DNA from: a virus
Virus record (IMG/VR): IMGVR_UViG_3300047372_000605
Span: 1-64,000 of that record
DNA length: 64,000 nt
Strand: one strand, 5' to 3'
The translations under genes and the position numbers were made by a program. A model generated the notes under the pieces. The model did not search any database and was not told the DNA's origin. It worked only from the letters and a program-made list of their open reading frames with translations. How positions within the stretch are numbered: position 1 is the first letter of the stretch; every line of letters begins with the position of its first letter. Shown piece after piece: positions 38,522-63,957 of this stretch.

Positions 38522-39034
38522 ATGACTAAAAATTATATTTACGATGTAGATGAAGATACAGTTTTAGAAAAAATATCACAACTGCAACCCCTTAATTATA
38601 ATCAATTTAGATGGTGGAGAAGATTTGATTCTCCAAACAAACCATTACACAAATATTCTGATTTACTAGATAAAATCCAAAATGGTGATTATGAATTCTC
38701 TCATTATTACTGGCAAGCAAGATATGCCGAAATGGAAATAAATCATTTACACCATGAAACATATCCCGATGCTGTTTTATTTAATGAAAAAAATGCTATG
38801 AACGGTGCTAGAAGAAAACGTTTGTGGGATGATTTTGAAAAAGACGAAAAAGAACGTATTAATAGTATTGAAAAAGATTTCTATATGAAGTTCAAAATGT
38901 CTCGAAAGCAAGTAAAAGAAGAAATGGGAGGGTTTGGAGGTACACTAGAAAATTTTTATCATTATTGTGATAAAGAATTTGGAACAAGACGAGAAAAATT
39001 ACAAACACGAGGAAGACCAAGAAAAGTTATATGA
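38522..39034 (+). CDS. Unknown protein with C-terminal AT-hook-like motif
   Basis: This 170-residue charged, Trp/Tyr-rich protein (for example QFRWWRRFDSPNKPLHKYSD and FSHYYWQARYAEMEINHLHHE in separate parts) is mainly helical. The C-terminus, TRGRPRKVI, is an AT-hook-like basic GRP tail similar to that of the 35827 protein. Its stop overlaps the start of the DpdA-like gene (ATGA), so it is the first gene of the modification operon. It may help the modification enzymes reach DNA or may control the operon; both are inference. No family was recognised. Confidence 0.6.
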   Translation: MTKNYIYDVDEDTVLEKISQLQPLNYNQFRWWRRFDSPNKPLHKYSDLLDKIQNGDYEFSHYYWQARYAEMEINHLHHETYPDAVLFNEKNAMNGARRKRLWDDFEKDEKERINSIEKDFYMKFKMSRKQVKEEMGGFGGTLENFYHYCDKEFGTRREKLQTRGRPRKVI

Positions 39035-39822
39035 AAGTATCACATGAAGCACCAATTCCCTACATGAAACAAGTTAGGGGGTTAATTGATTATGACTATT
39101 GTTTACCACACTTGCTAGATGAAAGCGAAGAATATAAACAATATTTTCAAGAATCTAAAGAAATGCAACGTTATATTATTATGGATAATTCCTTACATGA
39201 ATTAGGAGAACCATATGATTCAGAACGCCTAGCCCATTGGTTATATTATTTTAAACCTGATGAATTTATAGTACCAGATTACTGGCAAGATAAAACAGCT
39301 ACATTAGTATCAGCTAAAGAATGGGTTAATAAAAAATATCCTGAAAATACAACCCCAGTAGCTGTAGTACAAGGTAAAAATGAAGGTGAAGCTAGAGAAT
39401 GTTATAGAATATTAAAATATCAAGGTTATGAAAAAATAGCATTTAGTTATGGTGCAGATTGGTATTATGGTAAGGGAAAAGAAACATCTAAAAATATAGA
39501 AAATATAACAGTAACAAAAGCTCATGGTAGATATAACTTTATAAAAGAATTATATGAAGAAGATACTATTAAAAAATCAGATAGAATACATTTATTAGGA
39601 TGCAATATTCCTCAAGAATTTAAATGGTATAAAAATATGCCATTTATTAAAACAATAGACACATCAAACCCAGTTATACATGGTTTATCAGGAATAAAAT
39701 ATGAGCCCTGGGGATTGGATAACAAAATATCTACTAAGGTAGATAAATTTAAAGGAGAAGCTGAACATTGGGAAACAGCAATTTATAACATACAATTATT
39801 TAAAACATTTATACCAACATGA
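39031..39822 (+). CDS. dpdA: DpdA-like DNA-guanine transglycosylase (TGT superfamily)
   Basis: This 263-residue protein resembles the short phage branch of the tRNA-guanine transglycosylase superfamily that inserts 7-deazaguanines into DNA. Readable signatures are YIIMDNSLHELGEP near residue 49 (the first catalytic Asp), EFIVPDYWQDKTATL near 87, VAVVQGKNEGEA near 112, and IHLLGCNIPQEF then IKTIDTSNPV near 190-212 (the probable nucleophile Asp). The zinc cysteine cluster of tRNA enzymes is absent. With QueC, QueD, QueE and FolE all nearby, it probably exchanges guanine in phage DNA for preQ0. Both ends overlap neighbours by four bases. Confidence 0.75.
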   Translation: MKVSHEAPIPYMKQVRGLIDYDYCLPHLLDESEEYKQYFQESKEMQRYIIMDNSLHELGEPYDSERLAHWLYYFKPDEFIVPDYWQDKTATLVSAKEWVNKKYPENTTPVAVVQGKNEGEARECYRILKYQGYEKIAFSYGADWYYGKGKETSKNIENITVTKAHGRYNFIKELYEEDTIKKSDRIHLLGCNIPQEFKWYKNMPFIKTIDTSNPVIHGLSGIKYEPWGLDNKISTKVDKFKGEAEHWETAIYNIQLFKTFIPT

Positions 39823-40688
39823 AACAAGCAGTATTAAGTTTAAGTGGTGGAATGGATAGCAGTACACTATTACTTCACCTATTAGCAAACGATTATAAAG
39901 TAACAGCTCTTAGTTTTGATTATGGTCAAAAACATAGAGTTGAATTAGAAAGAGCACAACAATTAGTAGATTACTTAAATAGTAAAGCAAGTGAAACTTT
40001 AGCTAAAAATGATTTAGGAGAAACTATTAAACATAATTTTGAGCCTATTACATATCAATCTATTAAATTAGACGGTTTAACATCACTATTAGATTCAGCT
40101 TTAGTAGAAGGTGGAGATGATGTTCCTGAAGGACATTATGAAGAAGATAATATGAAAGCAACAGTAGTGCCTAATAGAAATAAAATATTTTCATCACTAA
40201 TACAATCTGTAGCATTATCAATTGCTAACAAAACAGAATCAGCGGTAAAAATAGCAATGGGTATTCATGCTGGAGATCATGCAATTTATCCTGATTGTAG
40301 ACAAGAATTTAGAGATGCAGATTATAAAGCATTTTCGGAAGGTAACTGGGAAGCATCAAGGGTATCATTATACACACCATATTTAAATGGAGATAAATTT
40401 GATATTTTAAAAGATGGAGAAGTATGTTGTAAAGAATTAGGGATTGATTTTAATGAAGTATATAAAAGAACTAATACATCATATAAACCAACAGCTGAAG
40501 GATTATCAGATTATAAATCAGCATCTTCAGTAGAAAGGATAGAAGCATTTTTAAAACTAGGTAGAAAAGACCCTGTCATATATGTAGATGGTTGGGACAC
40601 AGCAAAATCTCATGTTGAAAAATTATTAGCCGATCATGCAAATAAGCCTAACATGAATGATACTATCGACATGGTAAATAATATGTAA
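39819..40688 (+). CDS. queC: 7-cyano-7-deazaguanine synthase QueC, zinc site replaced
   Basis: QueC converts carboxy-deazaguanine to preQ0 using ATP and ammonia. This 289-residue protein keeps the ATP loop LSLSGGMDSSTLLL near residue 7, SFDYGQKHRVELERA, TVVPNRNKIF and the HAGDHAIYPDCR region. The C-terminal zinc site, normally CX8CX2CX2C, is missing. The aligned residues are Tyr222, Asp231, Ser234 and Ser237 at exactly the same spacing, just before the conserved VERIEAF. The fold may be held in another way. The residues after it (about 250-289) are extra compared with cellular QueC. It overlaps the DpdA-like gene. Confidence 0.85.
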   Translation: MKQAVLSLSGGMDSSTLLLHLLANDYKVTALSFDYGQKHRVELERAQQLVDYLNSKASETLAKNDLGETIKHNFEPITYQSIKLDGLTSLLDSALVEGGDDVPEGHYEEDNMKATVVPNRNKIFSSLIQSVALSIANKTESAVKIAMGIHAGDHAIYPDCRQEFRDADYKAFSEGNWEASRVSLYTPYLNGDKFDILKDGEVCCKELGIDFNEVYKRTNTSYKPTAEGLSDYKSASSVERIEAFLKLGRKDPVIYVDGWDTAKSHVEKLLADHANKPNMNDTIDMVNNM

Positions 40689-40689
40689 T

Positions 40690-40845
40690 ATGAAGCAACC
40701 AGACGCAAAAAAGCATCAAGTAATAAGTTTTATAAAATCAGGAATTCGTATCTTAGGATATGGATTTCTTGTAATTAATTTGCCTATTGCAGTAATTTTA
40801 CTTATATTAAGTGAAGCAGTAGGAATAATAGAAGAATTAGTATAA
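40690..40845 (+). CDS. 51-residue membrane microprotein
   Basis: The reading frame runs from ATG 40690 to TAA 40843-40845 and fills the whole gap between queC and queD. The stop shares a base with the queD start (TAATG). The first 18 residues are basic and polar. Residues about 19-42 form one hydrophobic segment (ILGYGFLVINLPIAVILLIL), and the end is acidic (GIIEELV). It is a likely inner-membrane protein. The tight packing and the typical start suggest a real gene. Function is unknown. Confidence 0.65.
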   Translation: MKQPDAKKHQVISFIKSGIRILGYGFLVINLPIAVILLILSEAVGIIEELV

Positions 40846-41309
40846 TGGGAAAATTTCAATCAAGTAAAGTTTTTGACGGGTTTAGTACAGTGTTTCGTCA
40901 ATGGAAAGCTGAAGATACACACTGTAGGTTTTTACATGGGTATGGTATTTCATTTAAAGTATATTTTGAAGGTGAATTAGATGGTAGAAATTGGGTTTGG
41001 GATTTTGGAGGAATGAAAAGAGCCAAAACTAAAATTGATGGTAAATCTCCTAAAGAATGGTTTGATTTTATGTTTGACCATACTGTAATAATAGCAGAAG
41101 ATGACCCAGGAATGGGTGGTTGGGAAACAATGAATAAATTGGGAGTTATTCAATTAAGAGTTATTGAAGCAACAGGAGCAGAAAAATTTGCAGAGTTTAT
41201 CTTTAATAAAGTAAATGATTTTGTCCATGAAGAAACTGAAGGTAGAGTAAGAGTTACTAAGGTTAAATTTATGGAACATGGTAAAAATGCAGCTTACTAC
41301 TGTGAATAA
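40845..41309 (+). CDS. queD: 6-carboxytetrahydropterin synthase QueD-like protein with altered zinc site
   Basis: QueD makes carboxytetrahydropterin, the second step toward preQ0. In this 154-residue protein the active-site pattern is Cys27-x3-His31-Gly-Tyr33, where cellular enzymes have CxxxHGH. The first zinc His of the AAHR motif is replaced by Phe17. The catalytic Cys27, the Asp-His pair in MFDHTVI near residue 78 and the Glu in KFMEHGK remain. So only one of three zinc ligands is kept in the usual place. The length is normal. It may bind metal in a different way or be specialised. Confidence 0.72.
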
Positions 41310-41316
41310 AAAAATA

Positions 41317-41401
41317 GGAAAGATGGCAGAGCGGTCGAATGCGCTGGTCTTGAAAACCAGTTTACTGAAAAGTAACGGGGGTTCGAATCCCTCTCTTTCC
41401 G
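41317..41401 (+). tRNA. tRNA-Ser (TGA)
   Basis: GGAAAGA at 41317 pairs with TCTTTCC at 41394-41400. The anticodon arm is CTGGT-CTTGAAA-ACCAG with anticodon TGA. A long variable arm (TTACT/AGTAA) and the T-loop GTTCGAATC confirm a serine tRNA. There is no encoded CCA. Confidence 0.93.
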
Positions 41402-41408
41402 CAAAAAT

Positions 41409-41479
41409 TACCGGGTCGTCTAGTGGCAGGACATTTGGTTTTGGTCCAGAGAACGGAGGTTCGAATCCTTCCCCGGTAA
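41409..41479 (+). tRNA. tRNA-Gln (TTG)
   Basis: TACCGGG at 41409 pairs with CCCGGTA at 41472-41478. The anticodon loop reads TTTTGGT with anticodon TTG. The T-loop GTTCGAATC is present. It lies seven bases after the previous tRNA. Confidence 0.92.
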
Positions 41480-41488
41480 CTATTAAAT

Positions 41489-41565
<77 letters not shown>

Positions 41566-41579
41566 CTAAAATTAAATAA

Positions 41580-42350
41580 ATGAAAAGAATAGAAGATTAT
41601 AATAAAGTATTACCAGTTTTAGAAGTATATAGGTGTGTACAATCAGAAGGATCTAGATTTGGTAGACCTACAATAGCAGTTAGAACAACAGGTTGTACTC
41701 ACAGATGCTATTTTGGAGAAGGTGGTTGGTGTGATTCTTGGTATACAAGTATACATCCAGAAAAAGGTACATTTACATTTAATGATATTATTAAAATATA
41801 TGATGATAATCCTCATGTAAAAGAAATGATGTTAACAGGTGGTTCACCTACAATGCACCCTGCTTTAGTAAATGAAATAACACACTTTGCAAATGAAAGA
41901 AATATACTTGTTACAATTGAAACTGAAGGTTCTCATTTTCTTGAAACCGATTATCCCTTGGATCTTATTAGTCTTAGTCCTAAGTTTTCTAATTCAGTTC
42001 CTGTAATAGGAGCTATTACACCTAATGGAGCAGTAGCAGATGAAAGAATGATTAAAGTCCATAACAGACTTAGATTAAATAAAGAAGCTATAGGAAAAAC
42101 AATTGCATACCATAAAGACTATCATTTTAAACCAGTATGGGATGGCACAGATAAAAATTTAGAAGAAATAGAGGCATTTAGAGTTGAAATGGATATACCA
42201 AAGGACAAAACATTTATTATGCCAGCTGGAGATACTAGAGAAACACTAATAAAAATGTATCCTTTAGTATTTGAATTATGTGCTGAAAAAGGATATAATA
42301 TGACAGGTAGAGACCATATTATAGCATTTGATACAGAACGAGGTGTCTAA
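41580..42350 (+). CDS. queE: QueE-like radical SAM enzyme (7-carboxy-7-deazaguanine synthase) with unusual cluster spacing
   Basis: This 256-residue protein has the QueE opening EVYRCVQSEGSRFGRPTIAVR and the radical SAM cluster, but the cysteines are Cys39-x3-Cys43-x7-Cys51 and not the usual CX3CX2C. The loop that follows SAM's methionine part is TGGSP (Gly87-Gly88-Ser89), where most members have GGE. The later ISLSPKFSNS segment fits QueE. It makes carboxy-deazaguanine, the substrate of QueC. The start follows a tRNA by 14 bases with an A-rich leader. A GTG-started small ORF overlaps its end. Confidence 0.8.
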   Translation: MKRIEDYNKVLPVLEVYRCVQSEGSRFGRPTIAVRTTGCTHRCYFGEGGWCDSWYTSIHPEKGTFTFNDIIKIYDDNPHVKEMMLTGGSPTMHPALVNEITHFANERNILVTIETEGSHFLETDYPLDLISLSPKFSNSVPVIGAITPNGAVADERMIKVHNRLRLNKEAIGKTIAYHKDYHFKPVWDGTDKNLEEIEAFRVEMDIPKDKTFIMPAGDTRETLIKMYPLVFELCAEKGYNMTGRDHIIAFDTERGV

Positions 42351-42477
42351 GGAGGAAGCATTAGAAATATTAGAAGAAATAAAAGAAAACGTAAACGTTT
42401 GTTGTGCCATTACTATGGAACCAGACGAAGTATTAGATTTAATAGAAAAATTAGAAGAATATTTAAGAAATGAATAA
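42343..42477 (+). CDS. 44-residue acidic microprotein
   Basis: The GTG at 42343 overlaps the last codons of queE by eight bases, and the stop overlaps the next ATG by eight. The product is helical and acidic (SKEEALEILEEIKENVNVCC, then EPDEVLDLIEKLEEYLRNE). An in-frame GGAGG lies just inside. It fits exactly between the two genes, which supports it being real. Function is unknown. Confidence 0.5.
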   Translation: MSKEEALEILEEIKENVNVCCAITMEPDEVLDLIEKLEEYLRNE

Positions 42478-43045
42478 AATAAAAATAACATTAATTTTAA
42501 TACTTAGCAGTGTTTTAAATTATAGTCAAGTAATAAAAACTGACATATTTACAGTTAAATATTCTGAAGAATATCAACAACCAATTTGGTTAGAATATAC
42601 AATACAATGCCCAAACGGACACGCTGAAAGAACAGGTATGAATTTTTGGGTACCTAAAGGGGTAAAAACATCAGATGATGCAGATTATGTAGATAATATT
42701 TACGATAAAGGTCACTTAGCACCTGCGGCAGCATTTAACTGTGATAAAGAAACCCTACTTAAAACATTTTCATACTTAAACTCAGCTTTACAACATGAAG
42801 GACTAAACAGAGGACAATGGGCAAGACTAGAATCATTTGAAAGAAGTTTAGCTAATTTCTTTGATAAAGAAGTAAAAGTAAGAGTAGATGTCTTATTCGA
42901 AGGTAAATTAAAAAAGGTAAAAGGTGGAGCTACAATACCTAGTGGCTTTAGAAAAACAATAATAATGGGAGATATTAAAAAAATATTTGAATTTCCAAAC
43001 GCCGATACAAAAGGTACAAGTTGGATAGAATATCTCAAAAAATAA
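42470..43045 (+). CDS. Secreted DNA/RNA non-specific endonuclease (beta-beta-alpha-metal type)
   Basis: This 191-residue protein has a signal peptide of flavobacterial style at residues 1-20 (MNKIKITLILILSSVLNYSQ). The NUC motif DRGH appears as Asp79-Lys-Gly-His82 in DKGHLAPAAAF, with His82 the general base. The metal-binding Asn region LNSALQHEGLNRGQWARLE follows, with Asn104 and Asn113. It should degrade DNA and/or RNA in the periplasm or outside the cell, and so cannot attack phage DNA inside the cytoplasm. It might destroy DNA of competing phages at entry or release nutrients. Host origin by transfer is plausible. Confidence 0.78.
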   Translation: MNKIKITLILILSSVLNYSQVIKTDIFTVKYSEEYQQPIWLEYTIQCPNGHAERTGMNFWVPKGVKTSDDADYVDNIYDKGHLAPAAAFNCDKETLLKTFSYLNSALQHEGLNRGQWARLESFERSLANFFDKEVKVRVDVLFEGKLKKVKGGATIPSGFRKTIIMGDIKKIFEFPNADTKGTSWIEYLKK

Positions 43046-43051
43046 AAAATT

Positions 43052-43207
43052 ATGAAAGTAACAAATTTATGGAATAAACTTAGAATATTAAGTGGTAATA
43101 TTTTAGAAATTAAGATTAGGATAAGTAAATTTATAATATTAGATTTATTTGTAAGTACAAACAGATTTAAATTAATGATTTTAAATATTGGATTTGAAAG
43201 CAAGTAA
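43052..43207 (+). CDS. 51-residue basic hypothetical protein
   Basis: The frame runs from ATG 43052 to TAA 43205-43207. It overlaps the start of the next gene by about 20 bases. The product is rich in Leu, Ile, Lys and Asn (LWNKLRILSGNILEIKIR, then KFIILDLF), probably amphipathic. It fills the only gap between the nuclease and the lipoprotein. Start and reality are uncertain; function is unknown. Confidence 0.4.
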   Translation: MKVTNLWNKLRILSGNILEIKIRISKFIILDLFVSTNRFKLMILNIGFESK

Positions 43208-43763
43208 AATATTACTTATACTTTTAGTTTTAATAGGTTGCAATAAAGAAGATGAAGATGGTTATAGAGTTTATACTATAGATAGAGGTAACCATTACTC
43301 AGATGGCCCTATAGATAAATTATTTGGTAATAATAATAGAGCTGAATCATGGGAATGGGAAGTTATATTTGAACCATCTTGTATTTACTCAGAATCAGAT
43401 TTATTTAATCCCTCAAATTATTTAGACGTTAATAAATTAATAGGTTTTTCAGATTGTGACAGACACCATTCTCAATATTCATGTAGAATAGGTTGGAGAG
43501 CATCAGGTGATTCTATTGAATTACTAATATATAAGAGGGATGATAATAATATAGAATTTAAATCCCTTAAAAAAGTATACCCAGACCAAATAGTAAACGT
43601 TACTTTAGATTTTAAAGACACTATTTACACATCTTGTATAGATGGAACTTGTGATACGTTAATAAGACCTTGTCCAGATTGGTCAGGTAGAAAATATTCA
43701 CTGTTTCCATTCTTTGGTGGTCAAGAAACGGCACCACATAAAATGAAAATTAGAATAAAATGA
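43188..43763 (+). CDS. Surface-exposed lipoprotein
   Basis: A 191-residue protein if started at TTG 43188 (TTG 43194 is also possible). It has a short hydrophobic signal ending in the lipobox LVLIGC, so it is a lipoprotein. The residues after the lipidated Cys are Asn-Lys-Glu-Asp-Glu-Asp, matching the Cys-X-Lys-acidic-acidic signal that sends lipoproteins to the cell surface in flavobacteria. The mature part has several Cys (FSDCDRHHSQYSCRIGW, later YTSCIDGTCDTLIRPC) and looks beta-rich. A phage surface lipoprotein may block receptors against other phages. The family was not firmly identified. Confidence 0.68.
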   Translation: MDLKASKILLILLVLIGCNKEDEDGYRVYTIDRGNHYSDGPIDKLFGNNNRAESWEWEVIFEPSCIYSESDLFNPSNYLDVNKLIGFSDCDRHHSQYSCRIGWRASGDSIELLIYKRDDNNIEFKSLKKVYPDQIVNVTLDFKDTIYTSCIDGTCDTLIRPCPDWSGRKYSLFPFFGGQETAPHKMKIRIK

Positions 43764-44197
43764 AAAAATACAATGTAGATTGGGATGAAATAAAAGCTTT
43801 AGTATTCAGGCTATCCCATAAAATAATTACCAACGATTTAGAATTTAAAAACATATATGGTTTACAAAGAGGAGGTTTAATACCTGCAGTAATGTTATCT
43901 CACCAATTAGGAATACCTATGGCTAAAGGTGATATAGGACCTGACACTTTAATAGTAGACGATATTTGTGATAGTGGAGAAACACTAGATAATTTAGTAA
44001 AAAAATATCAAACATTATATTCTTACCCATTTAACCTTAAAACAGCAGTTTTACATTATAAACCTCATACTTCATGTTTTGAACCAACTTTATATGCCGA
44101 AAAATGGAATAAGGATGTTTGGTTAATATATCCTTGGGAAAAAGAAGATTCAGAAGCTATACAAGATTACAAAGTAAAAGTTGGAGAATTGCAATAA
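43760..44197 (+). CDS. Phosphoribosyltransferase
   Basis: This 145-residue protein has a type I PRTase fold, with IYGLQRGGLIPAVMLSHQL near residue 32 and the PRPP loop TLIVDDICDSGETL near 65, where the two Asp residues bind PRPP. The C-terminal YAEKWNKDVWLIYPWEKE resembles xanthine/hypoxanthine PRTases. It probably salvages a purine base, and could in principle act on a deazapurine given the neighbours, though that is speculation. It overlaps the lipoprotein gene by four bases. Confidence 0.8.
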   Translation: MKKYNVDWDEIKALVFRLSHKIITNDLEFKNIYGLQRGGLIPAVMLSHQLGIPMAKGDIGPDTLIVDDICDSGETLDNLVKKYQTLYSYPFNLKTAVLHYKPHTSCFEPTLYAEKWNKDVWLIYPWEKEDSEAIQDYKVKVGELQ

Positions 44198-44211
44198 TTT
44201 TATTATATTAA
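44181..44211 (+). promoter_or_regulatory. Host-type promoter of folE
   Basis: TTG at 44181-44183, 20 bases, then TATATTAA at 44204-44211. The ATG at 44227 follows by 15 bases. Confidence 0.55.
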
Positions 44212-44226
44212 CGTAAAAATTAGTTA

Positions 44227-44922
44227 ATGGAGAACAAACGAAGAAAAATACACGAGGAGTTAGAAGTAGTAAAAGAAGGTTTTGCAAACGGAGTTGCACC
44301 TGGTTTTCCACTCCCACAATCTGAAAAAGATAAGATGATAGATAAAGCAGAATTGGCGTATGGTCAATTTTTAGATGCTTTAAAATGTGATTGGAGAAAT
44401 GATCCAAATTCAATGGAAACACCTAGACGTGTAGCTAAAGCTTATGTTAATGATTTATGGGCGGGTAGATACACAGCAATGTCTCCTATTACATCTTTTC
44501 CTTCTGATGGTTATGATGGTATTATTATAGAAAGAAACATACCTTTAACATCAATGTGCTCTCATCATCATCAAACAATTGGAGGTGTAGTTCATATTGG
44601 TTATATAGCAGGAGAAGGTGGTCAAGTAATTGGGTTATCAAAACTAAACAGAATTGTAGAATTATTTGGTAGAAGAGGAGCAATACAAGAGCAACTAACC
44701 TCAGCAATTCATAATGCCGTATCTAAAATTACAGAAGGTAATAAAGGTGTTATAGTTACAATAGTAGGTACTCATAATTGTGTTAGTTGTAGAGGAGTAA
44801 AACATCAAGGAGCAGCCATGGTTACAACTAAAGCTTCAGGTGTGTTTAGAGAAAACGATAATTTAGCTAGAAAAGAATTTTTTGACAGCCTAAAGATTAA
44901 CAACGGAGGGCATAATATATAA
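44227..44922 (+). CDS. folE: GTP cyclohydrolase I (FolE), first step of preQ0 synthesis
   Basis: This 231-residue protein keeps the zinc and catalytic residues: Cys and His in TSMCSHHHQTIGG near residue 111, and Cys in GTHNCVSCRGVKHQGA near 188. The substrate-binding VIGLSKLNRIVELFGRR and IQEQLT segments are intact. It makes dihydroneopterin triphosphate, which QueD then uses. In contrast to QueC, QueD and QueE here its metal site is complete. It has its own host-type promoter and is followed by a MazG-like gene. Confidence 0.92.
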   Translation: MENKRRKIHEELEVVKEGFANGVAPGFPLPQSEKDKMIDKAELAYGQFLDALKCDWRNDPNSMETPRRVAKAYVNDLWAGRYTAMSPITSFPSDGYDGIIIERNIPLTSMCSHHHQTIGGVVHIGYIAGEGGQVIGLSKLNRIVELFGRRGAIQEQLTSAIHNAVSKITEGNKGVIVTIVGTHNCVSCRGVKHQGAAMVTTKASGVFRENDNLARKEFFDSLKINNGGHNI

Positions 44923-44925
44923 ACA

Positions 44926-45567
44926 ATGAGTAAACAAAGAACATTAAATGAGCTGAGACAAACTAAGGATGCACATTATATTCCAAAGTATGATCCTCAA
45001 ACAGGAGATAAAAATCCTCATTATAAAGAACTAACAGGTGAAGAACTTGAAGAGATGATGAATGAAACAGATGCACCTCCAGGAGTTCAATTTGTAAATG
45101 AAGTAGAAATATTTAATGCCACATTTGGTAAACCAAACAACTATGTCCCAACAATCCCAGAAAAGAAAGAAACAGATTTCGTCTACGACTTTTGTATCGA
45201 AGAAATCACAGAATATCAAGAAGCTTGCAAAAACGGAGACATCGTGGAAATTTTGGATGCTATTTGCGATATTGCTTATGTTACCTTGGGGAATGCCACT
45301 ATGTTACATGGCCTTAAAGATAAGATTTGGCCAGCGTATAAAGAAGTCCAGGCGTCAAATATGTCTAAGTCTTGCAAAACTGAAGAAGAAGCAGCACAAA
45401 CTGTCACTCAAAGAGCTAAGGAACAAGGTGAAGAATGCCATTTTGAAAAAGTAGGAGATAGATATGTTGTATACAGAACAAGAGACAGAAAGGTTATGAA
45501 ATCTATTAACTATTTTAGACCAGATTTAAAGCAGTTTTTCACTGAAGAGGAATTAAAAAATGTTTAA
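44926..45567 (+). CDS. MazG-like nucleotide pyrophosphohydrolase
   Basis: This 213-residue protein carries the MazG-type metal motif in residues about 88-115: FCIEEITEYQEACKNGD, then EILDAICDIAYVTLG. That is a Glu-Glu-x2-Glu helix and an Asp-x3-Asp helix. The IWPAYKEVQASNMSK segment after it is typical of phage members. It would hydrolyse (d)NTPs or abnormal nucleotides. The N-terminal 60 residues and the C-terminal 60 are extensions of unknown role. It overlaps the polymerase gene by eight bases. Confidence 0.8.
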   Translation: MSKQRTLNELRQTKDAHYIPKYDPQTGDKNPHYKELTGEELEEMMNETDAPPGVQFVNEVEIFNATFGKPNNYVPTIPEKKETDFVYDFCIEEITEYQEACKNGDIVEILDAICDIAYVTLGNATMLHGLKDKIWPAYKEVQASNMSKSCKTEEEAAQTVTQRAKEQGEECHFEKVGDRYVVYRTRDRKVMKSINYFRPDLKQFFTEEELKNV

Positions 45568-47236
45568 AAAAGCATTTGCACGAAGAATAGGAGGAAACAA
45601 ACATTTAATACATCTTTGGACTGACACAGGTTATGAGAAAGTTGAATGGACAAACTTTGCCTATAAAGAATGCAGTGAAGCAGATGCTGATTATATAGGT
45701 TTAAATGGCGAACCACTAAGAAAGACTAGTAAATGGGGTCCTGATGATTCAGGACTCCATTTTCATGACATGAAAGCATATCAAAAATTCTTAATTGAAA
45801 AATATGGTACTAATGATGAACCATCTACTACACACAGAGAATTATTTTTTGATATTGAAACTGAAATGGGTGATGCTTTAACACCTGAATACATTCAAAA
45901 TGCACCTAAAAAAGTTACATCTATAGCTTGGTATGATAAACAAGTAGATGAATGGGGTATATTAATTTTAGATACTAAAAACCAATTAGAACATACTAAA
46001 GCTAGAAACAAAGAAATTACACCTTGTAAAACCGAAAGTGATTTACTAGCTAAATTCTTAGAAAAATTTAGAGAAATCGATCCTGATATTATAATAGGAT
46101 ACAATAGTGATTATTTTGATATACCATACCTATACTACAGAATGTGTAATGTATTAGGTGAAGATTGGGCTAGACATTTATCTCCTATTGGTTATGTAAG
46201 AGAAACACCTTGGTTTAAAGACCAATATATTCAAATAGCAGGTGTTGAATCTCTTGATTACATGCGTTTACATAAAAAGTTTAGTTGGAAAGATGAACCA
46301 TCATGGAAATTAGATGCTATTGGAGAAAAATATGCAGGTATAAATAAAGTTGAATATGAAGGTAATTTAGATTCTTTATTTGAAAGTGACATAAATAAAT
46401 TCATCCAATATAACTTTGTTGATGTTGAAATACTAGTTGAATTAGATAAAAAATTAGAATATTTAGCTTTAACTAAAAATCTATCACATAAAGGTAAACA
46501 TAACTATAGTGAGGTATATGCTAATACAAATACCCAAGATGGTGCTATTTCGGCTTACTTATTATCCCAAAATATTATCCCACCTGCTAAAGACAAAGAC
46601 TTAAAAGCAGAAAAAGGATATGCTGGAGGTTATTTATTTTGCCCTAAAGCAGGAATATACAACTATATGTTTGATGAGGATTTAACTTCACTATATCCCT
46701 CAATTATTATGTCTCTTAATATAGGTAAAGAAACATTAAAAGCAAGAATCATAGATGCTGATGATAGAAATAATAGATTAGGATTAAATGATTTAAAAGC
46801 TAAAGACCCAGATAGTACTATTATTATTAAAAACCATAAAGGCAAACGAGCTGAAGTTACAATAGCTAACCTATTAAAATTTATAGAAGGAAATCAATTT
46901 ACTATATCAGCTAATGGTACTATGTTTGCTACAAATAGACAATCAGTACTATCAACTATACTAGCTAAATGGTTTGGTGAAAGAGTATTATATAAAGGTA
47001 AAATGAAAAAAGCATACCAAGCTAAAGATAAAGAAGCAGGAGCTAAATATCATTTACTACAATATACAATGAAAATTTTATTAAATAGTTTATATGGTGC
47101 AACAGCATTACCTAGTTTTAGATATGGTAATGTTAATTTATCAAAAGCTATAACACTTTCAGGACAAAGAATTATTCAAGAATCAGCTTTAATAGCAAAT
47201 AAAAAAATGAACGAGGAGATAAAAAATGTTAAGTAA
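45560..47236 (+). CDS. Family B DNA polymerase, N-terminal chain (T4 gp43-like, split)
   Basis: This 558-residue chain holds the 3'-5' exonuclease (ELFFDIETEMGD near residue 97, PDIIIGYNSDYFDIPYLY near 176, YNFVDVEILVELD near 290). It also holds the first half of the polymerase domain: motif A EDLTSLYPSIIMS near 375 and motif B MKILLNSLYGATA near 507. It stops just after the finger/palm helix (ANKKMNEEIKN), before motif C. The missing part is on the 47486 gene, in the same frame, 249 bases on. The two chains probably join to form the replicase. Confidence 0.9.
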   Translation: MFKKAFARRIGGNKHLIHLWTDTGYEKVEWTNFAYKECSEADADYIGLNGEPLRKTSKWGPDDSGLHFHDMKAYQKFLIEKYGTNDEPSTTHRELFFDIETEMGDALTPEYIQNAPKKVTSIAWYDKQVDEWGILILDTKNQLEHTKARNKEITPCKTESDLLAKFLEKFREIDPDIIIGYNSDYFDIPYLYYRMCNVLGEDWARHLSPIGYVRETPWFKDQYIQIAGVESLDYMRLHKKFSWKDEPSWKLDAIGEKYAGINKVEYEGNLDSLFESDINKFIQYNFVDVEILVELDKKLEYLALTKNLSHKGKHNYSEVYANTNTQDGAISAYLLSQNIIPPAKDKDLKAEKGYAGGYLFCPKAGIYNYMFDEDLTSLYPSIIMSLNIGKETLKARIIDADDRNNRLGLNDLKAKDPDSTIIIKNHKGKRAEVTIANLLKFIEGNQFTISANGTMFATNRQSVLSTILAKWFGERVLYKGKMKKAYQAKDKEAGAKYHLLQYTMKILLNSLYGATALPSFRYGNVNLSKAITLSGQRIIQESALIANKKMNEEIKNVK

Positions 47237-47489
47237 ACAATCCATAAGAAAAGAACACATTATACTTTTAAATAGAGTAAAAATGTCAAAAGATGAAATC
47301 ATAGAAATATCTAAAGATTTCACAGAACCTGAAGAACAACGATTTAGAAAAATATTACAACAAGGTGGTAAAATTTCTATTCAAGGTAAAAAATTTGAAA
47401 TAGTAAAAGATTTAAAAGACTATGCTAGAAATAGTAAAGGTGAATATGAAGCTCCAGCTAAACCTCATAGAAACGAAGACTGGGAATGA
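47226..47489 (+). CDS. 87-residue ORF inserted between the two polymerase chains
   Basis: The ORF is in the +1 frame relative to both polymerase pieces. Its start overlaps the first chain by 11 bases and its stop overlaps the next ATG (ATGA). The product is Lys/Glu-rich (SKDEIIEISKDFTEPEEQ, then LQQGGKISIQGKKFEIVKD). No intein, homing endonuclease or other family was recognised. It may be a remnant of a mobile gene or a small subunit that bridges the two chains. Both overlaps suggest coupled translation. Confidence 0.6.
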   Translation: MLSKQSIRKEHIILLNRVKMSKDEIIEISKDFTEPEEQRFRKILQQGGKISIQGKKFEIVKDLKDYARNSKGEYEAPAKPHRNEDWE

Positions 47490-48463
47490 AGCATTTAGAA
47501 GACACACCATGGTGGATATGTGATCCTGAAGATACTAACTATTGTGCTTATGTAGACACAGATAGTAATTATTTTCATGCTGAACCTTTATTAAGACATA
47601 GATTTCCTAATTTTGATGGAATGTCTGATAAGGAAAAGGATACTGAACTAGAAAAAATTGCCCTAGAATATCAAGATATTATTACAGACCATTACAATAA
47701 TGTAGCTAAGGACGTTTTTAATATAAATCAATTTGAATGGTTTGATAAGCCACATTGGTTAGAAATGAAAACTGAATGTGTAATAAGATCAGCTTATTTT
47801 AGAGCAACTAGAAGGTATGCACAATGGATCACTAAACAAGAAGGTGTTGAAAAAGAAACACTTGATATTAAAGGTTTAGAGTTCCAAAAATCTAATTTTC
47901 CACCTATACTAGGTAAATTCTTTAATGATGTTTTAGTAGACGTTTTAAAAGGTGAAACACAAGATGATATAGATGCTAGAGTAAAAACATTTAAAAAGCA
48001 AGTATTAGATGGAACCATACCATTAACAGATTTAGGTAACCCAACATCAGTAAAACAAATAGGTAAACATCAAGGCAAACCAGCCAGAAAAGGAGAAATG
48101 TTATCAACATTTAATCATGTAGAAAATAAAGTAGGCAGAAAATTAGGTGCACCTGCAGCAGTAAAAGCAGCTATTAGATATAACGATTTACTTAGATTTT
48201 GGAAATTAGATAGCAAATACGAATTAATTACCAATGGTACTAAAATAAAATGGATTTATCTTAAAAATAACCCATATCAAATTGAAGAAATAGCATTTCT
48301 AGATTATGATATGCCAGAAAAAATTCGTACATTCATTGAGCAGTATGCTGATAGAAAAAAAGTATTTGAAAGTATTTTATTAAATAAATTAGAGGGATTC
48401 TATGGTGATTTAGAATGGAACTTAAACTTAAACCCCTACATTAATCAATTTTTTGACTTATGA
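47486..48463 (+). CDS. Family B DNA polymerase, C-terminal chain (T4 gp43-like, split)
   Basis: This 325-residue chain begins shortly before motif C, YCAYVDTDSNYFH near residue 18, whose two Asp residues complete the active site. Residues about 100-140 carry the thumb-side pattern (TECVIRSAYFRATRRYAQWI, then ETLDIKGLEFQKSNFPP). The rest is the thumb. It must act with the 45560 chain. Its stop overlaps the clamp gene by four bases. The C-terminus (NLNPYINQFFDL) may bind the clamp. Confidence 0.9.
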   Translation: MKHLEDTPWWICDPEDTNYCAYVDTDSNYFHAEPLLRHRFPNFDGMSDKEKDTELEKIALEYQDIITDHYNNVAKDVFNINQFEWFDKPHWLEMKTECVIRSAYFRATRRYAQWITKQEGVEKETLDIKGLEFQKSNFPPILGKFFNDVLVDVLKGETQDDIDARVKTFKKQVLDGTIPLTDLGNPTSVKQIGKHQGKPARKGEMLSTFNHVENKVGRKLGAPAAVKAAIRYNDLLRFWKLDSKYELITNGTKIKWIYLKNNPYQIEEIAFLDYDMPEKIRTFIEQYADRKKVFESILLNKLEGFYGDLEWNLNLNPYINQFFDL

Positions 48464-49308: not shown

Positions 49309-49725
49309 ATGAGTACATTATTTCACGAACGAACACCGTTCGACATTTTATTCAAAAACTTCTTTCAAGCAGAAGGAAAATTTCAACCAACAACATTCGA
49401 AAACAAACAACCTCACCCACTAGATATATTCTATAATGATGATGGTCTCAATTTTGAGATTGCCTGTACAGGTTTAACTAAAAAAGATATACAATTAAAA
49501 ATTGATGGAGATCAATTAAATATATCTTATGATAAACCATCAGAAGAAGAATCATATGAGGGTTATATCTATAAAGGACTAGCTAAAAGGTCTTTTAAAC
49601 TAGGATATAAAATAGCAGCTAAATTTGATTTATCAAAAATAGAAGCTAAAATGGAAAATGGTTTACTCCATTTATTCATCCCAACAGCCGCAGATAAAAA
49701 ATCAAAAATAGTAACAATAAAATAA
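49309..49725 (+). CDS. Small heat shock protein (Hsp20/alpha-crystallin)
   Basis: Residues about 38-130 of this 138-residue protein form the alpha-crystallin domain (GLNFEIACTGLTKKDIQLKID, then YIYKGLAKRSFKLGYKI, then KIEAKMENGLLHLFIP). The short N-terminal arm contains FDILFKNFFQ. It holds unfolding proteins and lies just before GroES and GroEL, forming a chaperone block. The gene is enclosed by a 16-base inverted repeat and has a structured leader. Hsp20 genes are common in marine T4-like phages. Confidence 0.88.
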   Translation: MSTLFHERTPFDILFKNFFQAEGKFQPTTFENKQPHPLDIFYNDDGLNFEIACTGLTKKDIQLKIDGDQLNISYDKPSEEESYEGYIYKGLAKRSFKLGYKIAAKFDLSKIEAKMENGLLHLFIPTAADKKSKIVTIK

Positions 49726-49732
49726 AAAAAAC

Positions 49733-49748
49733 TGCATCCTAGGTTTGC
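49733..49748. repeat. Right arm of the inverted repeat around hsp20
   Basis: TGCATCCTAGGTTTGC pairs with 49220-49235. It also contains the TTTG element of the groES promoter. Confidence 0.75.
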
Positions 49749-49774
49749 TTATTAAACTATTTTTATTATATTAC
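49744..49774 (+). promoter_or_regulatory. Host-type promoter of groES-groEL
   Basis: TTTG at 49744-49747, 19 bases, then TATATTAC at 49767-49774. The ATG at 49801 follows an A-rich leader. Confidence 0.55.
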
Positions 49775-49800
49775 CCACAAACATTAAATTAAATTAAGTT

Positions 49801-50166
49801 ATGGAATTAGAAGCATTATTCGATGCCGTTATTGTTAAACCTCAAGAAGAGGAAGAGACACAATATGGATCAATAGTAGTACCCGATTTAGGAAAAGACA
49901 GAAACGAACATGGAGAAGTAGTTGCTGTGGGTCCTGGAAGACAAGTAGCAGGAATTGGCTTTGTAGAAACTAATATTAAAGTTGGAGATAAAGTAATTCT
50001 ACCAACAATAGGTTTTACTAAACTTGAACATAAAGGAGATGAATATTATATCGGTTCTGAAAATCAAATATTAGCAAGAATAAATAATACAACATCAGTA
50101 GAGGATGTTTTAGCAGAAACAGAAGTATCAGAGGAAGATTTTGATGCTCTTAAATCAATAGATTAA
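49801..50166 (+). CDS. GroES-like co-chaperonin
   Basis: This 121-residue protein has the GroES barrel (LFDAVIVKPQEEEET then the VVPDLGKDRNEHGEVVAVGPG loop and roof). The mobile loop at about residues 15-33 includes an Ile-Val-Val that would touch GroEL. It then adds a 25-residue acidic tail (EDVLAETEVSEEDFDALKS) not found in short cellular GroES. The GroEL gene starts one base after its stop. T4 replaces only GroES (gp31); here both parts are encoded. Confidence 0.88.
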   Translation: MELEALFDAVIVKPQEEEETQYGSIVVPDLGKDRNEHGEVVAVGPGRQVAGIGFVETNIKVGDKVILPTIGFTKLEHKGDEYYIGSENQILARINNTTSVEDVLAETEVSEEDFDALKSID

Positions 50167-50167
50167 G

Positions 50168-51775
50168 ATGAGTAAAATTATAGAATTTGGCCCTGAAGCC
50201 AGAAAAAAACTAGTAAAAGGAATAGACCAAATAGCAGATGCTGTAGTATCTACATTAGGTCCAAATGGTAGGAATGTTGTTATTTCTAAACCAGGCCAAA
50301 CACCACAATCAACAAAAGATGGTGTAACAGTAGCAAAAAATATTTCATTAGAAGATCCAACTGAAGAGTTAGGAGTTCAAATGCTTAAACAAGCAGCTAT
50401 TAAAACCGCAGATAAAGCAGGAGATGGTACAACTACTTCTACTCTATTAGCTAGAGAAATGGTTAAAGCAGGTTTATCAGCTTTAGATAGTGGAGCAAAT
50501 GCTGTTGATATTAAAAGAGGAATTGATAAAGCTGTAGAACAGGTAATTCACCATTTAACCCCATTTCAAGAAGATGTCTCATCTCAAGAACAATTAGAGC
50601 AAGTAGCTACTATTTCAGCTAATAACGATGAAACTATAGGTAAATTAATTGCTACTGCAATGGAAAAAGTAGGTAGAGAAGGGGTAGTACATATTGAAGA
50701 ATCTAAAACAGGTGAAACTTATCTTGAAACCGTAGAGGGTATGCAATTTGATAGAGGTTATAAATCTCCTTATTTTGTTACTGATAATAATACTATGTCT
50801 ACTACTTTGAATGATTGTTATGTTTTAATAGCAGATCATACTTTTACCCAAGTAAAAGAATTATTACCGATATTAGAAAGTGTATCAAATACAAATAAAT
50901 CCCTTTTAATCATTGCCAAAGACATAGACAATGAAGCATTAGCTACCCTTATTGTAAATAAAATGAGAGGTTCATTAAAAGTATGTGCTGTTAAAGCTCC
51001 TGAATTTGGAGATAGACAAAAATTAGTTCTAGATGACATAGCTGTTCTAACTGGAGGTCAAGTATTCAGTAAAGAAAAAGGTATGAAACTAGAAAAGTTT
51101 AGTTGGGAATGGTTTGGTGAAGCTAGAGTATCTACTATTACTAAAGAAAAAACTACAATTGTAGATGGTAAAGGTTCAGAAGAAGCAATTACTGCTAGAG
51201 TAGAAGAATTATCTCAACAAATAGAAAGAGCTGATACACCATTTGCAATGGAAAAGTTACAAGATAGAATGTCTAAATTCGTAGGTGGAGTAGCAATTGT
51301 TCATGTAGGTGGAAATACTGAAACTGAGATGAATGAAAGAAAAGATAGAGTAGATGATGCCCTTAATGCCACAAAAGCAGCTATTGAAGAAGGTATTCTA
51401 CCAGGAGGAGGAGTTGCAATAGCAAGAGCTACACAGTGGGTAGAATATAATGGTAATGTAGATTTTAACATTGGAGTAGATATTGTTAAAATAGCATGTC
51501 AAAAACCATATGAACAAATCTTAAAAAATGCTGGAATAAATGAAATTCCTGAATTGGCAGAAGATGGAGAGTGGGAAGGATTTGATATTAGACAAAATAA
51601 AATGGTAGACTTTAAAGAAGCGGGTATTATAGATCCATTTAAGGTTACTAGAAGTGCATTACAAAATGCTGCATCAATAGCTGGAACTATTCTGTTAACA
51701 GAAGCCACAGTTGTTGATAAACCATCAGAAAATACAACACCAGAAATAGATCCATCCATGATGGGTATGATGTAA
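50168..51775 (+). CDS. groL: GroEL-like chaperonin
   Basis: This 535-residue protein is full length, with all parts in order: equatorial VSTLGPNGRNVVISK near residue 30, the GDGTTTSTLLA ATP loop with Asp near 87, apical and hinge regions, and the VDDALNATKAAIEEGILPGGGVAIA catalytic Asp region near 397. The C-terminus is MMGMM, like the flexible cellular tail. It may fold phage structural proteins or replace the host chaperonin. Full GroEL genes are uncommon in T4-like phages. It could be recently host-derived, but base use looks like that of its neighbours. Confidence 0.92.
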   Translation: MSKIIEFGPEARKKLVKGIDQIADAVVSTLGPNGRNVVISKPGQTPQSTKDGVTVAKNISLEDPTEELGVQMLKQAAIKTADKAGDGTTTSTLLAREMVKAGLSALDSGANAVDIKRGIDKAVEQVIHHLTPFQEDVSSQEQLEQVATISANNDETIGKLIATAMEKVGREGVVHIEESKTGETYLETVEGMQFDRGYKSPYFVTDNNTMSTTLNDCYVLIADHTFTQVKELLPILESVSNTNKSLLIIAKDIDNEALATLIVNKMRGSLKVCAVKAPEFGDRQKLVLDDIAVLTGGQVFSKEKGMKLEKFSWEWFGEARVSTITKEKTTIVDGKGSEEAITARVEELSQQIERADTPFAMEKLQDRMSKFVGGVAIVHVGGNTETEMNERKDRVDDALNATKAAIEEGILPGGGVAIARATQWVEYNGNVDFNIGVDIVKIACQKPYEQILKNAGINEIPELAEDGEWEGFDIRQNKMVDFKEAGIIDPFKVTRSALQNAASIAGTILLTEATVVDKPSENTTPEIDPSMMGMM

Positions 51776-62493: not shown

Positions 62494-63957
62494 ATGTTAT
62501 ATATATTTGAAATGGCAAATAATCATATGGGTAGTGTTTCCCATGCCAAAACTATCATTGATGAATTTGCAAATTTATCAAAAAAATGGAAAATAACAGC
62601 AGGAATTAAATTACAATTTAGAAATCTAGATACTTTTATTCATCCTGATTTTCAACAGCGTAATGATTTAAAATATGTTAAAAGATTTAATGAAACTAGA
62701 TTATCTAAATCAGAATTTAAAGAAATAGTTGATTATATTAAATCTACGGGATTATTAGCCATTACAACTCCTTTCGATAATGAATCAATCCCTATGACTT
62801 CAGAATTAAATATTGATGTATTAAAAGTAGCAAGTTGTTCTGTGGATGATTGGCCCTTATTAGAAGAATTATCAAATATAAATAAAAAAATAATTATATC
62901 AACTGCAGGGGTTGAGTTAAATACTTTACGTAAGGTTTATAGAATATTTAAACAAAAAAGAAGAGATTTTGCATTTATGCATTGTGTTGGTGAATACCCA
63001 ACAGCTAACGAAGTTGCAAATTTAAATAGAATTAAAGAATTAAAAAATGAATTTCCTGATATAGAAATAGGATTTTCAACACATGAATCTCCTTTAGAAA
63101 AATCAATGACTCCTTATGCTGTAGCTATGGGATGTACAATAGTTGAAAAACATGTTGGGGTGCCTACAGATGAATGGTCTTTAAACGCTTATTCATTAAC
63201 CAGTAATCAAATGGATAAGGTATTGTTTGAAATTGATGAATTATTAAGAGCATCAATAGGTAAATCTAATGAGCAAATTAAATCATTAAAATCTTTAAAA
63301 CGTGGAGTTTATGTAAAAAATGATCTAAAAAAAGGCCATAAAATTAGTAAAAATGATATATATTTTGCAATGCCAGTTCAAGATGGTATGCTAGATGCTT
63401 CTAACTATTATGATATTTTAAATTCTCATATTAAAACAGATAAAGTAAAAAATGAAGGGTTATATTTAAGTAATGTTGTAAATTTAGATCGAAAAGAAAT
63501 AATAGAAAAAATAAAATCCCAAGTTAAAAAACAACTATCAGAAGCTAATGTTACAATTACGGATAAGGATGATATAGAAATTTCATCTCATTATGGGTTA
63601 GAATCATTTTTTGAAACAGGTTGTGTTATTATTTCAAAAATCAACCGTAAATATTGTAAAAAAATATTAGTAGTTTTACCAAATCAATCTCATCCTACCC
63701 ATAGACATATGATAAAAGAAGAATCATTTGAATTATTATCTGGAGATTGTAAATTAGTTTTAAATGGAAGGGATATAGATCTTAAATTAGGGGAACCAAA
63801 GCTTATTAATACAAAAGTTGATCATTCTTTTAGTAGTAAAAAAGGATGTGTAGTAGAAGAAGTGTCAACAACTCATATTCCTGGGGATTCTATATATCAA
63901 AATCCTGAGATAAATAAATTATCTTTAAGTGAACGTAAAATTAAAATATCTTTATAA
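62494..63957 (+). CDS. Nonulosonic (sialic-type) acid synthase NeuB with SAF and cupin domains
   Basis: A 487-residue protein. Residues 1-245 are a NeuB barrel: FEMANNHMGSVSHA at the start, ITTPFDNESIPM, LKVASCSVDDWPLLEEL and GFSTHESPLEKSM. Residues about 268-320 are a SAF-type domain (LKRGVYVKNDLKKGHKI), as in sialic acid synthases. Residues about 385-487 form a cupin with HPTHRHMIKEESFELL and a later DHSF. The enzyme condenses a sugar with phosphoenolpyruvate. The cupin may be an isomerase or lock the domain. The next gene looks like the activating cytidylyltransferase. Confidence 0.82.
   Translation: MLYIFEMANNHMGSVSHAKTIIDEFANLSKKWKITAGIKLQFRNLDTFIHPDFQQRNDLKYVKRFNETRLSKSEFKEIVDYIKSTGLLAITTPFDNESIPMTSELNIDVLKVASCSVDDWPLLEELSNINKKIIISTAGVELNTLRKVYRIFKQKRRDFAFMHCVGEYPTANEVANLNRIKELKNEFPDIEIGFSTHESPLEKSMTPYAVAMGCTIVEKHVGVPTDEWSLNAYSLTSNQMDKVLFEIDELLRASIGKSNEQIKSLKSLKRGVYVKNDLKKGHKISKNDIYFAMPVQDGMLDASNYYDILNSHIKTDKVKNEGLYLSNVVNLDRKEIIEKIKSQVKKQLSEANVTITDKDDIEISSHYGLESFFETGCVIISKINRKYCKKILVVLPNQSHPTHRHMIKEESFELLSGDCKLVLNGRDIDLKLGEPKLINTKVDHSFSSKKGCVVEEVSTTHIPGDSIYQNPEINKLSLSERKIKISL

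Follow-up and report, generated by a model that had tools for sequence, protein, structure and literature searches.

A QueC without the four zinc cysteines in a probable phage 7-deazaguanine DNA-modification cluster

The first 64,000 bases (1-64000, hereafter the window) of the 92,958-base IMG/VR virus record IMGVR_UViG_3300047372_000605, a metagenomic contig of a phage whose host is probably a marine Bacteroidetes, carry a cluster of DpdA-, QueC-, QueD-, QueE- and FolE-like genes at 39031-44922. These five make up the minimal gene set for 7-deazaguanine modification of DNA; the original prediction, made from the sequence letters alone, had placed them there, and profile matches bear it out. 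We consider, with a probability of about 0.77, that they encode a working phage DNA-modification pathway whose QueC is free of the zinc site. FolE, QueD, QueE and QueC would convert GTP to 7-cyano-7-deazaguanine (preQ0), and the DpdA-like transglycosylase would exchange guanine in phage DNA for this base, most likely giving the deoxynucleoside dPreQ0 and resistance to restriction. For this cluster, the activity of the enzymes, their metal content and the nature of the virion DNA base are what we infer, and the best reading of the sequences is that QueC, and perhaps QueD, would do without the textbook zinc site. A preQ0-type cluster of separate-lineage enzymes, as originally proposed, fits everything tested, and these enzymes may have the different metal needs that were proposed with it.

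QueC keeps its catalytic signature and lacks its zinc site

The queC gene (39819-40688, + strand) encodes a protein of 289 amino acids (PF06508, E=7.5e-38). A four-cysteine zinc motif is listed as a hallmark of QueC in a 2026 survey of the family (PMC13329287). All four cysteines are absent from the window protein, which has Ser221, Asp231, Ser234 and Ser237 where they are expected, in the former zinc-site loop formed by residues 218-240 (TNTSYKP..SDYKSASSVER; 40470-40538, + strand). These positions come from a gap-free alignment with close cysteine-bearing relatives (L152, L161 and L169, TCYxPxxxGxxCGxCGSCxER), in which the spacing of this subfamily is C-x9-C-x2-C-x2-C. The original prediction had put Tyr222, Asp231, Ser234 and Ser237 at the exact CX8CX2CX2C spacing; the last three residues hold, whereas the first position belongs to Ser221 and the spacing has to be given up. 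Tyr222 is instead invariant in 69 of 69 aligned QueCs, and its E. coli counterpart is Tyr189, an essential residue whose alanine mutant is inactive (PMC13329287). As the C-x8-CxxCxxC motif is missing, we count the protein as a member of a cysteine-less variant lineage and not as a canonical QueC.

The rest of the QueC signature is intact (PP-loop SGGxDS, YGQxHxxE, VPNRN, YPDC and Tyr222), in line with the prediction of preserved catalytic residues. SGGxDS, YGQxHxxE, RN, YPDC and Tyr222 are invariant in four-cysteine and cysteine-less proteins alike, and match residues needed in E. coli QueC (PMC13329287). The AlphaFold2 model (mean predicted local distance difference test score, pLDDT, 92.6) has the QueC structures 2pg3 and 3bl5 as its closest solved folds. 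The canonical enzyme (QueC of Erwinia carotovora, 2pg3, of B. subtilis, 3bl5, and of E. coli) is alike in fold and catalytic signature, but has a four-cysteine zinc site in place of the Ser/Asp/Ser/Ser set. In the mechanism that we propose, the residues handling ATP and substrate would have been kept and the structural zinc knot swapped for the conserved Ser/Asp/Ser/Ser motif, which may hold the same loop by hydrogen bonds. The analogy is with cysteine-less ribosomal protein paralogues, in which a structural zinc knot is replaced by non-cysteine residues. However, those paralogues are spares for zinc starvation, whereas the cysteine-less QueC is an enzyme and the only copy in sampled genomes.

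A scan of viral contigs with the window QueC returned at least 552 relatives. All 80 that were examined have S/D/S/S at the four positions and no zinc cysteine, which is far beyond chance; the motif context, SD[YF]KSA[SA]SVER, is conserved and preceded by a loop of variable length. The QueD variant described below is common to the examined loci and the QueE variant is found in nearly all. Among close relatives, the pairwise ratio of nonsynonymous to synonymous substitution rates (dN/dS) is about 0.05 to 0.36 for QueC, QueD, QueE, DpdA and FolE (in the closest relatives, QueC has dN 0.04-0.19 and dS 0.36-1.34). Pseudogene-like decay in relatives had been named beforehand as a sign that would speak against the prediction; it was looked for and not seen, conservation and low dN/dS leading us to reject it in favour of purifying selection.

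QueD and QueE variants

QueD (154 amino acids; 40845-41309, + strand; PTPS, PF01242, 3.5e-13) has Phe17 and Tyr33 in place of two zinc histidines, just as predicted, and of the three keeps only His31. It nonetheless belongs to the PTPS fold: the catalytic set of Cys27, Asp78-His79 and Glu144 is kept, and the closest solved folds to its AlphaFold2 model (pLDDT 94.2) are the PTPS-fold 3jyg and the QueD 4ntk. His26, Cys27, His31, Asp78, His79 and Glu144 are invariant among the aligned variant QueDs; for His26, Cys27 and His31 this holds across 56 sequences. With one of the three zinc histidines left, QueD would bind metal differently or not at all. This HGY form is more widely spread than the cysteine-less QueC, being found also in Pseudomonas, Rhizobium, Stenotrophomonas and Cellulophaga phages; Iggy, Mendera, RHph_X3_2, phi38:2 and MA9V-3 carry it. 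Cellulophaga phage phi38:2 pairs a four-cysteine QueC with an HGY QueD, whereas Poseidoniales pair a cysteine-less QueC with an ordinary HGH QueD; the losses in QueC and QueD are thus independent of each other, and this phage combines them.

QueE (256 amino acids; 41580-42350, + strand; PHROG QueE 3.6e-48) was correctly predicted to have Cys39-x3-Cys43-x7-Cys51 and GGS. The spacing CX3CX7C is lineage-wide, and GGS stands for the GGE motif in nearly all relatives, with GGA in Cysteiniphilum. Since the three cluster cysteines and the radical-SAM domain are kept, the altered metal site that had been announced comes down to a change of spacing, not a loss. A distinct QueE, with GGE and with more than 30 residues inserted after the second cluster cysteine and before the third, lies beside a cysteine-less QueC in L029, L046, L057, L073 and L085. 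FolE (GTP cyclohydrolase I; 44227-44922, + strand; 9.2e-42) is intact, as predicted, with the metal motifs SMCSHHH and NCVSCRG.

Cysteine-less QueC in cellular genomes

Scanning bacterial and archaeal genomes with the window QueC also recovered cysteine-less proteins, and the notion of a phage-only oddity was rejected. Among the 80 loci scored, 75 have no cysteine at the four positions, three have all four, one has a single cysteine and one could not be scored; the cellular homologues are 43-57% identical to the window QueC, against 33% for E. coli QueC. Several of the S/D/S/S loci are phage-like contigs binned into cellular metagenome-assembled genomes; contigs of this very phage cluster in bacterial or archaeal bins (Pelagibacter, Woesearchaeota; L090-L097 except L096) are probably misbinned phage. 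The cysteine-less form occurs in Poseidoniales archaea, Pirellulaceae, Neomarinimicrobiota and the gammaproteobacteria Cysteiniphilum, Facilibium and Thiotrichales bacterium 19S9-11, the last three of which we take to be Fangiales. It is the sole QueC in 12 of 12 sampled genomes, other PF06508 matches being weak, partial and of about 30 bits or less. Ten of these genomes have tRNA-guanine transglycosylase (TGT) and eight have QueF (four Fangiales, three Pirellulaceae and one Neomarinimicrobiota); the four Fangiales genomes contain no PTPS other than the variant QueD.

Cysteiniphilum litorale (L099) provides the strongest single case, a chromosomal queC-queD-queE beside the housekeeping genes enolase and ispD, in which all three sites are variant: QueC has SDYQSASS, QueD the Phe/Tyr variant, and QueE CTHRCHFGEHGGWC and GGA. 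QueC and QueD are single-copy, and TGT and QueF are located elsewhere in the genome. Unless this bacterium depends on salvage, its preQ0 has to come from the three variant enzymes acting together.

Bimodal QueC scores were obtained in a sample of the phylum around a Poseidoniales genome, the examined low scorers all being cysteine-less (20/20) and the examined high scorers all having four cysteines (30/30). In Planctomycetota, 50 of 50 examined sample loci keep the four cysteines; phylum-wide loss was rejected, and the cysteine-less form is limited to part of this phylum.

Repeated change of the cysteine site

Our QueC tree excluded the zinc-loop columns and came from a short search, with the root not inferred. 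By parsimony it requires at least four changes between the four-cysteine and cysteine-less states, two of them forced by well-supported branches, and a single loss event was rejected. Loss rather than gain is suggested by the wide spread of the four-cysteine form. The cysteine-less proteins fall into a phage/Fangiales S/D/S/S clade, a Poseidoniales-Pirellulaceae-Neomarinimicrobiota group (SxTD/SxSD), phages near phi38:2, and Iggy. The phages near phi38:2 (within L215-L249) have the form TDYNG...NPA[ST]xLR, in which Asp, Asn and Ser/Thr occupy three of the four cysteine positions; the QueC of Rhizobium phage RHph_X3_2, left out of the tree, looks Iggy-like. A separate lineage was predicted; on this cysteine-scored tree the phage S/D/S/S proteins share a clade with those of Fangiales, and the cysteine-less state is not phage-restricted and arose more than once. 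Marine zinc scarcity as the cause of all cases is not supported, as phages of Rhizobium (agricultural land) and Pseudomonas (wastewater) also lack the site.

With this loss seen in hundreds of phages and in entire groups of archaea and bacteria, the QueC zinc site is apparently dispensable. A broader proposal, which we hold to be about an even bet, is that of a zinc-lean pathway: QueC, QueD and phage DpdA would have shed their zinc sites several times over, in independent events among phages, marine archaea and bacteria; FolE would remain the sole zinc enzyme, and the QueC site would then be structural and replaceable.

Alternatively, zinc could still be bound by other residues, namely His26, Cys27 and His31 in QueD, and Asp and Ser ligands together with water in QueC. 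The invariance of the three QueD residues in the 56 aligned variants and the conservation of Asp231 in the phage QueC lineage would suit such a site. Yet no Cys or His stands at the four positions of QueC, the variation between SSSD, SHTD, SNTD and SASD that we observe in Poseidoniales and Pirellulaceae is ill-suited to a metal site, and in a variant QueD from one gammaproteobacterium (L378) the residue ahead of Cys27 is Asn. We judge retained zinc doubtful, though worth keeping in mind.

The DpdA-like protein and the predicted base in phage DNA

The DpdA-like DNA guanine transglycosylase (263 amino acids; 39031-39822, + strand) matches phrog_19058 (E=2.3e-46) and the annotated DpdA of Flavobacterium phage vB_FspM_immuto_2-6A (immuto, NC_055915; E=1e-48, 37% identity), and is likewise 37% identical to a protein of Campylobacter phage CP220; it has no Pfam or NCBIfam match. 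Its family has no invariant Cys among 44 relatives, and DpdA adjoins or is near QueC in most viral loci.

Immuto and Cellulophaga phage phiST have the closest annotated clusters. That of immuto (QueC 64%, QueD 70%, QueE 68%, FolE 61%, DpdA 37% identity) has the same altered QueC, QueD and QueE sites. Its DpdA is accompanied by additional genes for QueF, a formyltransferase and a kinase-like protein, none of which the window record has, so that a simpler base, dPreQ0, is expected here. The original prediction had seen no QueF in the window; neither QueF nor a formyltransferase was found in all of the 92,958-base record, which is not known to be complete. In L009, L016, L019, L027, L084 and L001, genes for a formyltransferase, a kinase-like protein and QueF come after DpdA, which suggests formylated preQ1-type bases.

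A minimal set of DpdA and the four preQ0 genes gives dPreQ0 (PMC6884629). This gene content, without QueF, makes dPreQ0 the most likely base on sequence grounds. The deoxynucleoside of the amide 7-amido-7-deazaguanine (dADG) is possible, because the window DpdA is nearest to the immuto/Campylobacter phage family and Campylobacter phages carry dADG (PMC6884629). Pseudomonas phage Iggy (Iggyvirus) resembles the window in having a cysteine-less QueC, an HGY QueD, QueE, FolE and DpdA, but has a separate position on the QueC tree, a normal CX3CX2C QueE and a DpdA of a different family. In the passage of PMC11008142 that cites doi 10.1093/nar/gkad622, Iggy DNA is reported to contain dPreQ0; this would support, but does not prove, activity of a cysteine-less QueC, because the host could supply preQ0.

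QueC could also be inactive or altered, the phage inserting the QueE product 7-carboxy-7-deazaguanine (CDG) or the amide ADG rather than preQ0. Cui et al. reportedly described dCDG and deoxy-7-deazaguanosine (dDG) as phage bases in 2023, and dADG is a known one, found in the Campylobacter phages to which, with immuto, the window DpdA is closest. Moreover, Cellulophaga phage phiST (KC821604), whose QueD (63%), QueE (63%) and FolE (62%) are close to those of the window and which shares the QueD and QueE variants, has a very divergent DpdA-like gp042 and no QueC found near the cluster. Against this stand the invariance of the full QueC signature under purifying selection, the QueF downstream in immuto-type loci, which is a preQ0-requiring enzyme, and the position of the cysteine-less protein as sole QueC in bacteria with TGT and QueF, whose queuosine depends on preQ0 unless salvage takes its place. 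We consider an inactive or altered QueC unlikely.

That the pathway modifies host tRNA (queuosine or archaeosine) instead of phage DNA appears highly improbable: cellular relatives of this QueC do occur in TGT-bearing genomes, but here the DpdA-like gene adjoins QueC, no QueF was found in the window record, and DpdA is kept near QueC in most phage relatives. That this QueC is a protein ligase of the Cap9 or QatC kind, a role for which QueC-fold proteins have been repurposed (PMC13329287, PMC13279940), can practically be dismissed, since both of those keep the zinc cysteines, no CD-NTase, qatA, qatB or qatD partner was seen nearby, and the genes of the entire preQ0 pathway surround it.

Some points weigh against a working pathway with a zinc-site-free QueC. 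The identity of DpdA is based on annotated relatives and a weak match to the DpdA profile of the Queuovirinae 9g, CAjan, Iggy and Ares (E=1.9e-4 over 104 columns). In Iggy-like cases host QueD, as well as QueC, could supply preQ0. The window proteins also score below the NCBIfam equivalog cut-offs (QueC 123 bits against 150, QueD 27 against 89, QueE 55 against 206). No account of a cysteine-less QueC was found in our literature search; two 2023 Nucleic Acids Research papers (gkad657 and gkad622), which lay outside it, may mention one.

Other genes of the cluster and record

All genes of the cluster lie on the + strand, in the order DpdA-like, queC, queD, three tRNAs (Ser-TGA, Gln-TTG and Ala-TGC; 41317-41566), queE, a DNA/RNA non-specific endonuclease (42470-43045; PF01223, E=3e-25), an uncharacterised gene, a purine-type phosphoribosyltransferase with a counterpart in the immuto cluster (43760-44197), and folE. 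A MazG/PRA-PH-like pyrophosphohydrolase then follows (44926-45567, + strand), and its immuto homologue is likewise directly downstream of FolE. Speculatively, the endonuclease might attack unmodified host DNA.

Further along, a family B DNA polymerase is seemingly split between open reading frames 45560-47236 and 47486-48463, with an 87-amino-acid frame (47226-47489) between them; the second half has no Pfam match of its own. Phage genes for a small heat-shock protein, a GroES-like protein and GroEL occupy 49309-51775. A phage sialic-acid-type cluster (62494-63957 and L004:929-4267, that is, record 63929-67267) follows several glycosyltransferases and includes NeuB (PF03102, E=4e-39), a family-29 sialyltransferase (PF00777, E=1e-29), an FkbM methyltransferase/glycosyltransferase family 2 (GT2) fusion and, by eye and without a Pfam match, a NeuA-like cytidylyltransferase.

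Significance for the QueC family

The existence of a cysteine-less lineage accounts for these proteins being missed by database cut-offs. If our reading is correct, a large and abundant QueC lineage without the zinc site and under purifying selection, sometimes the sole QueC of a free-living organism, would redefine the family, and its members would offer natural zinc-free enzymes for work on the mechanism.

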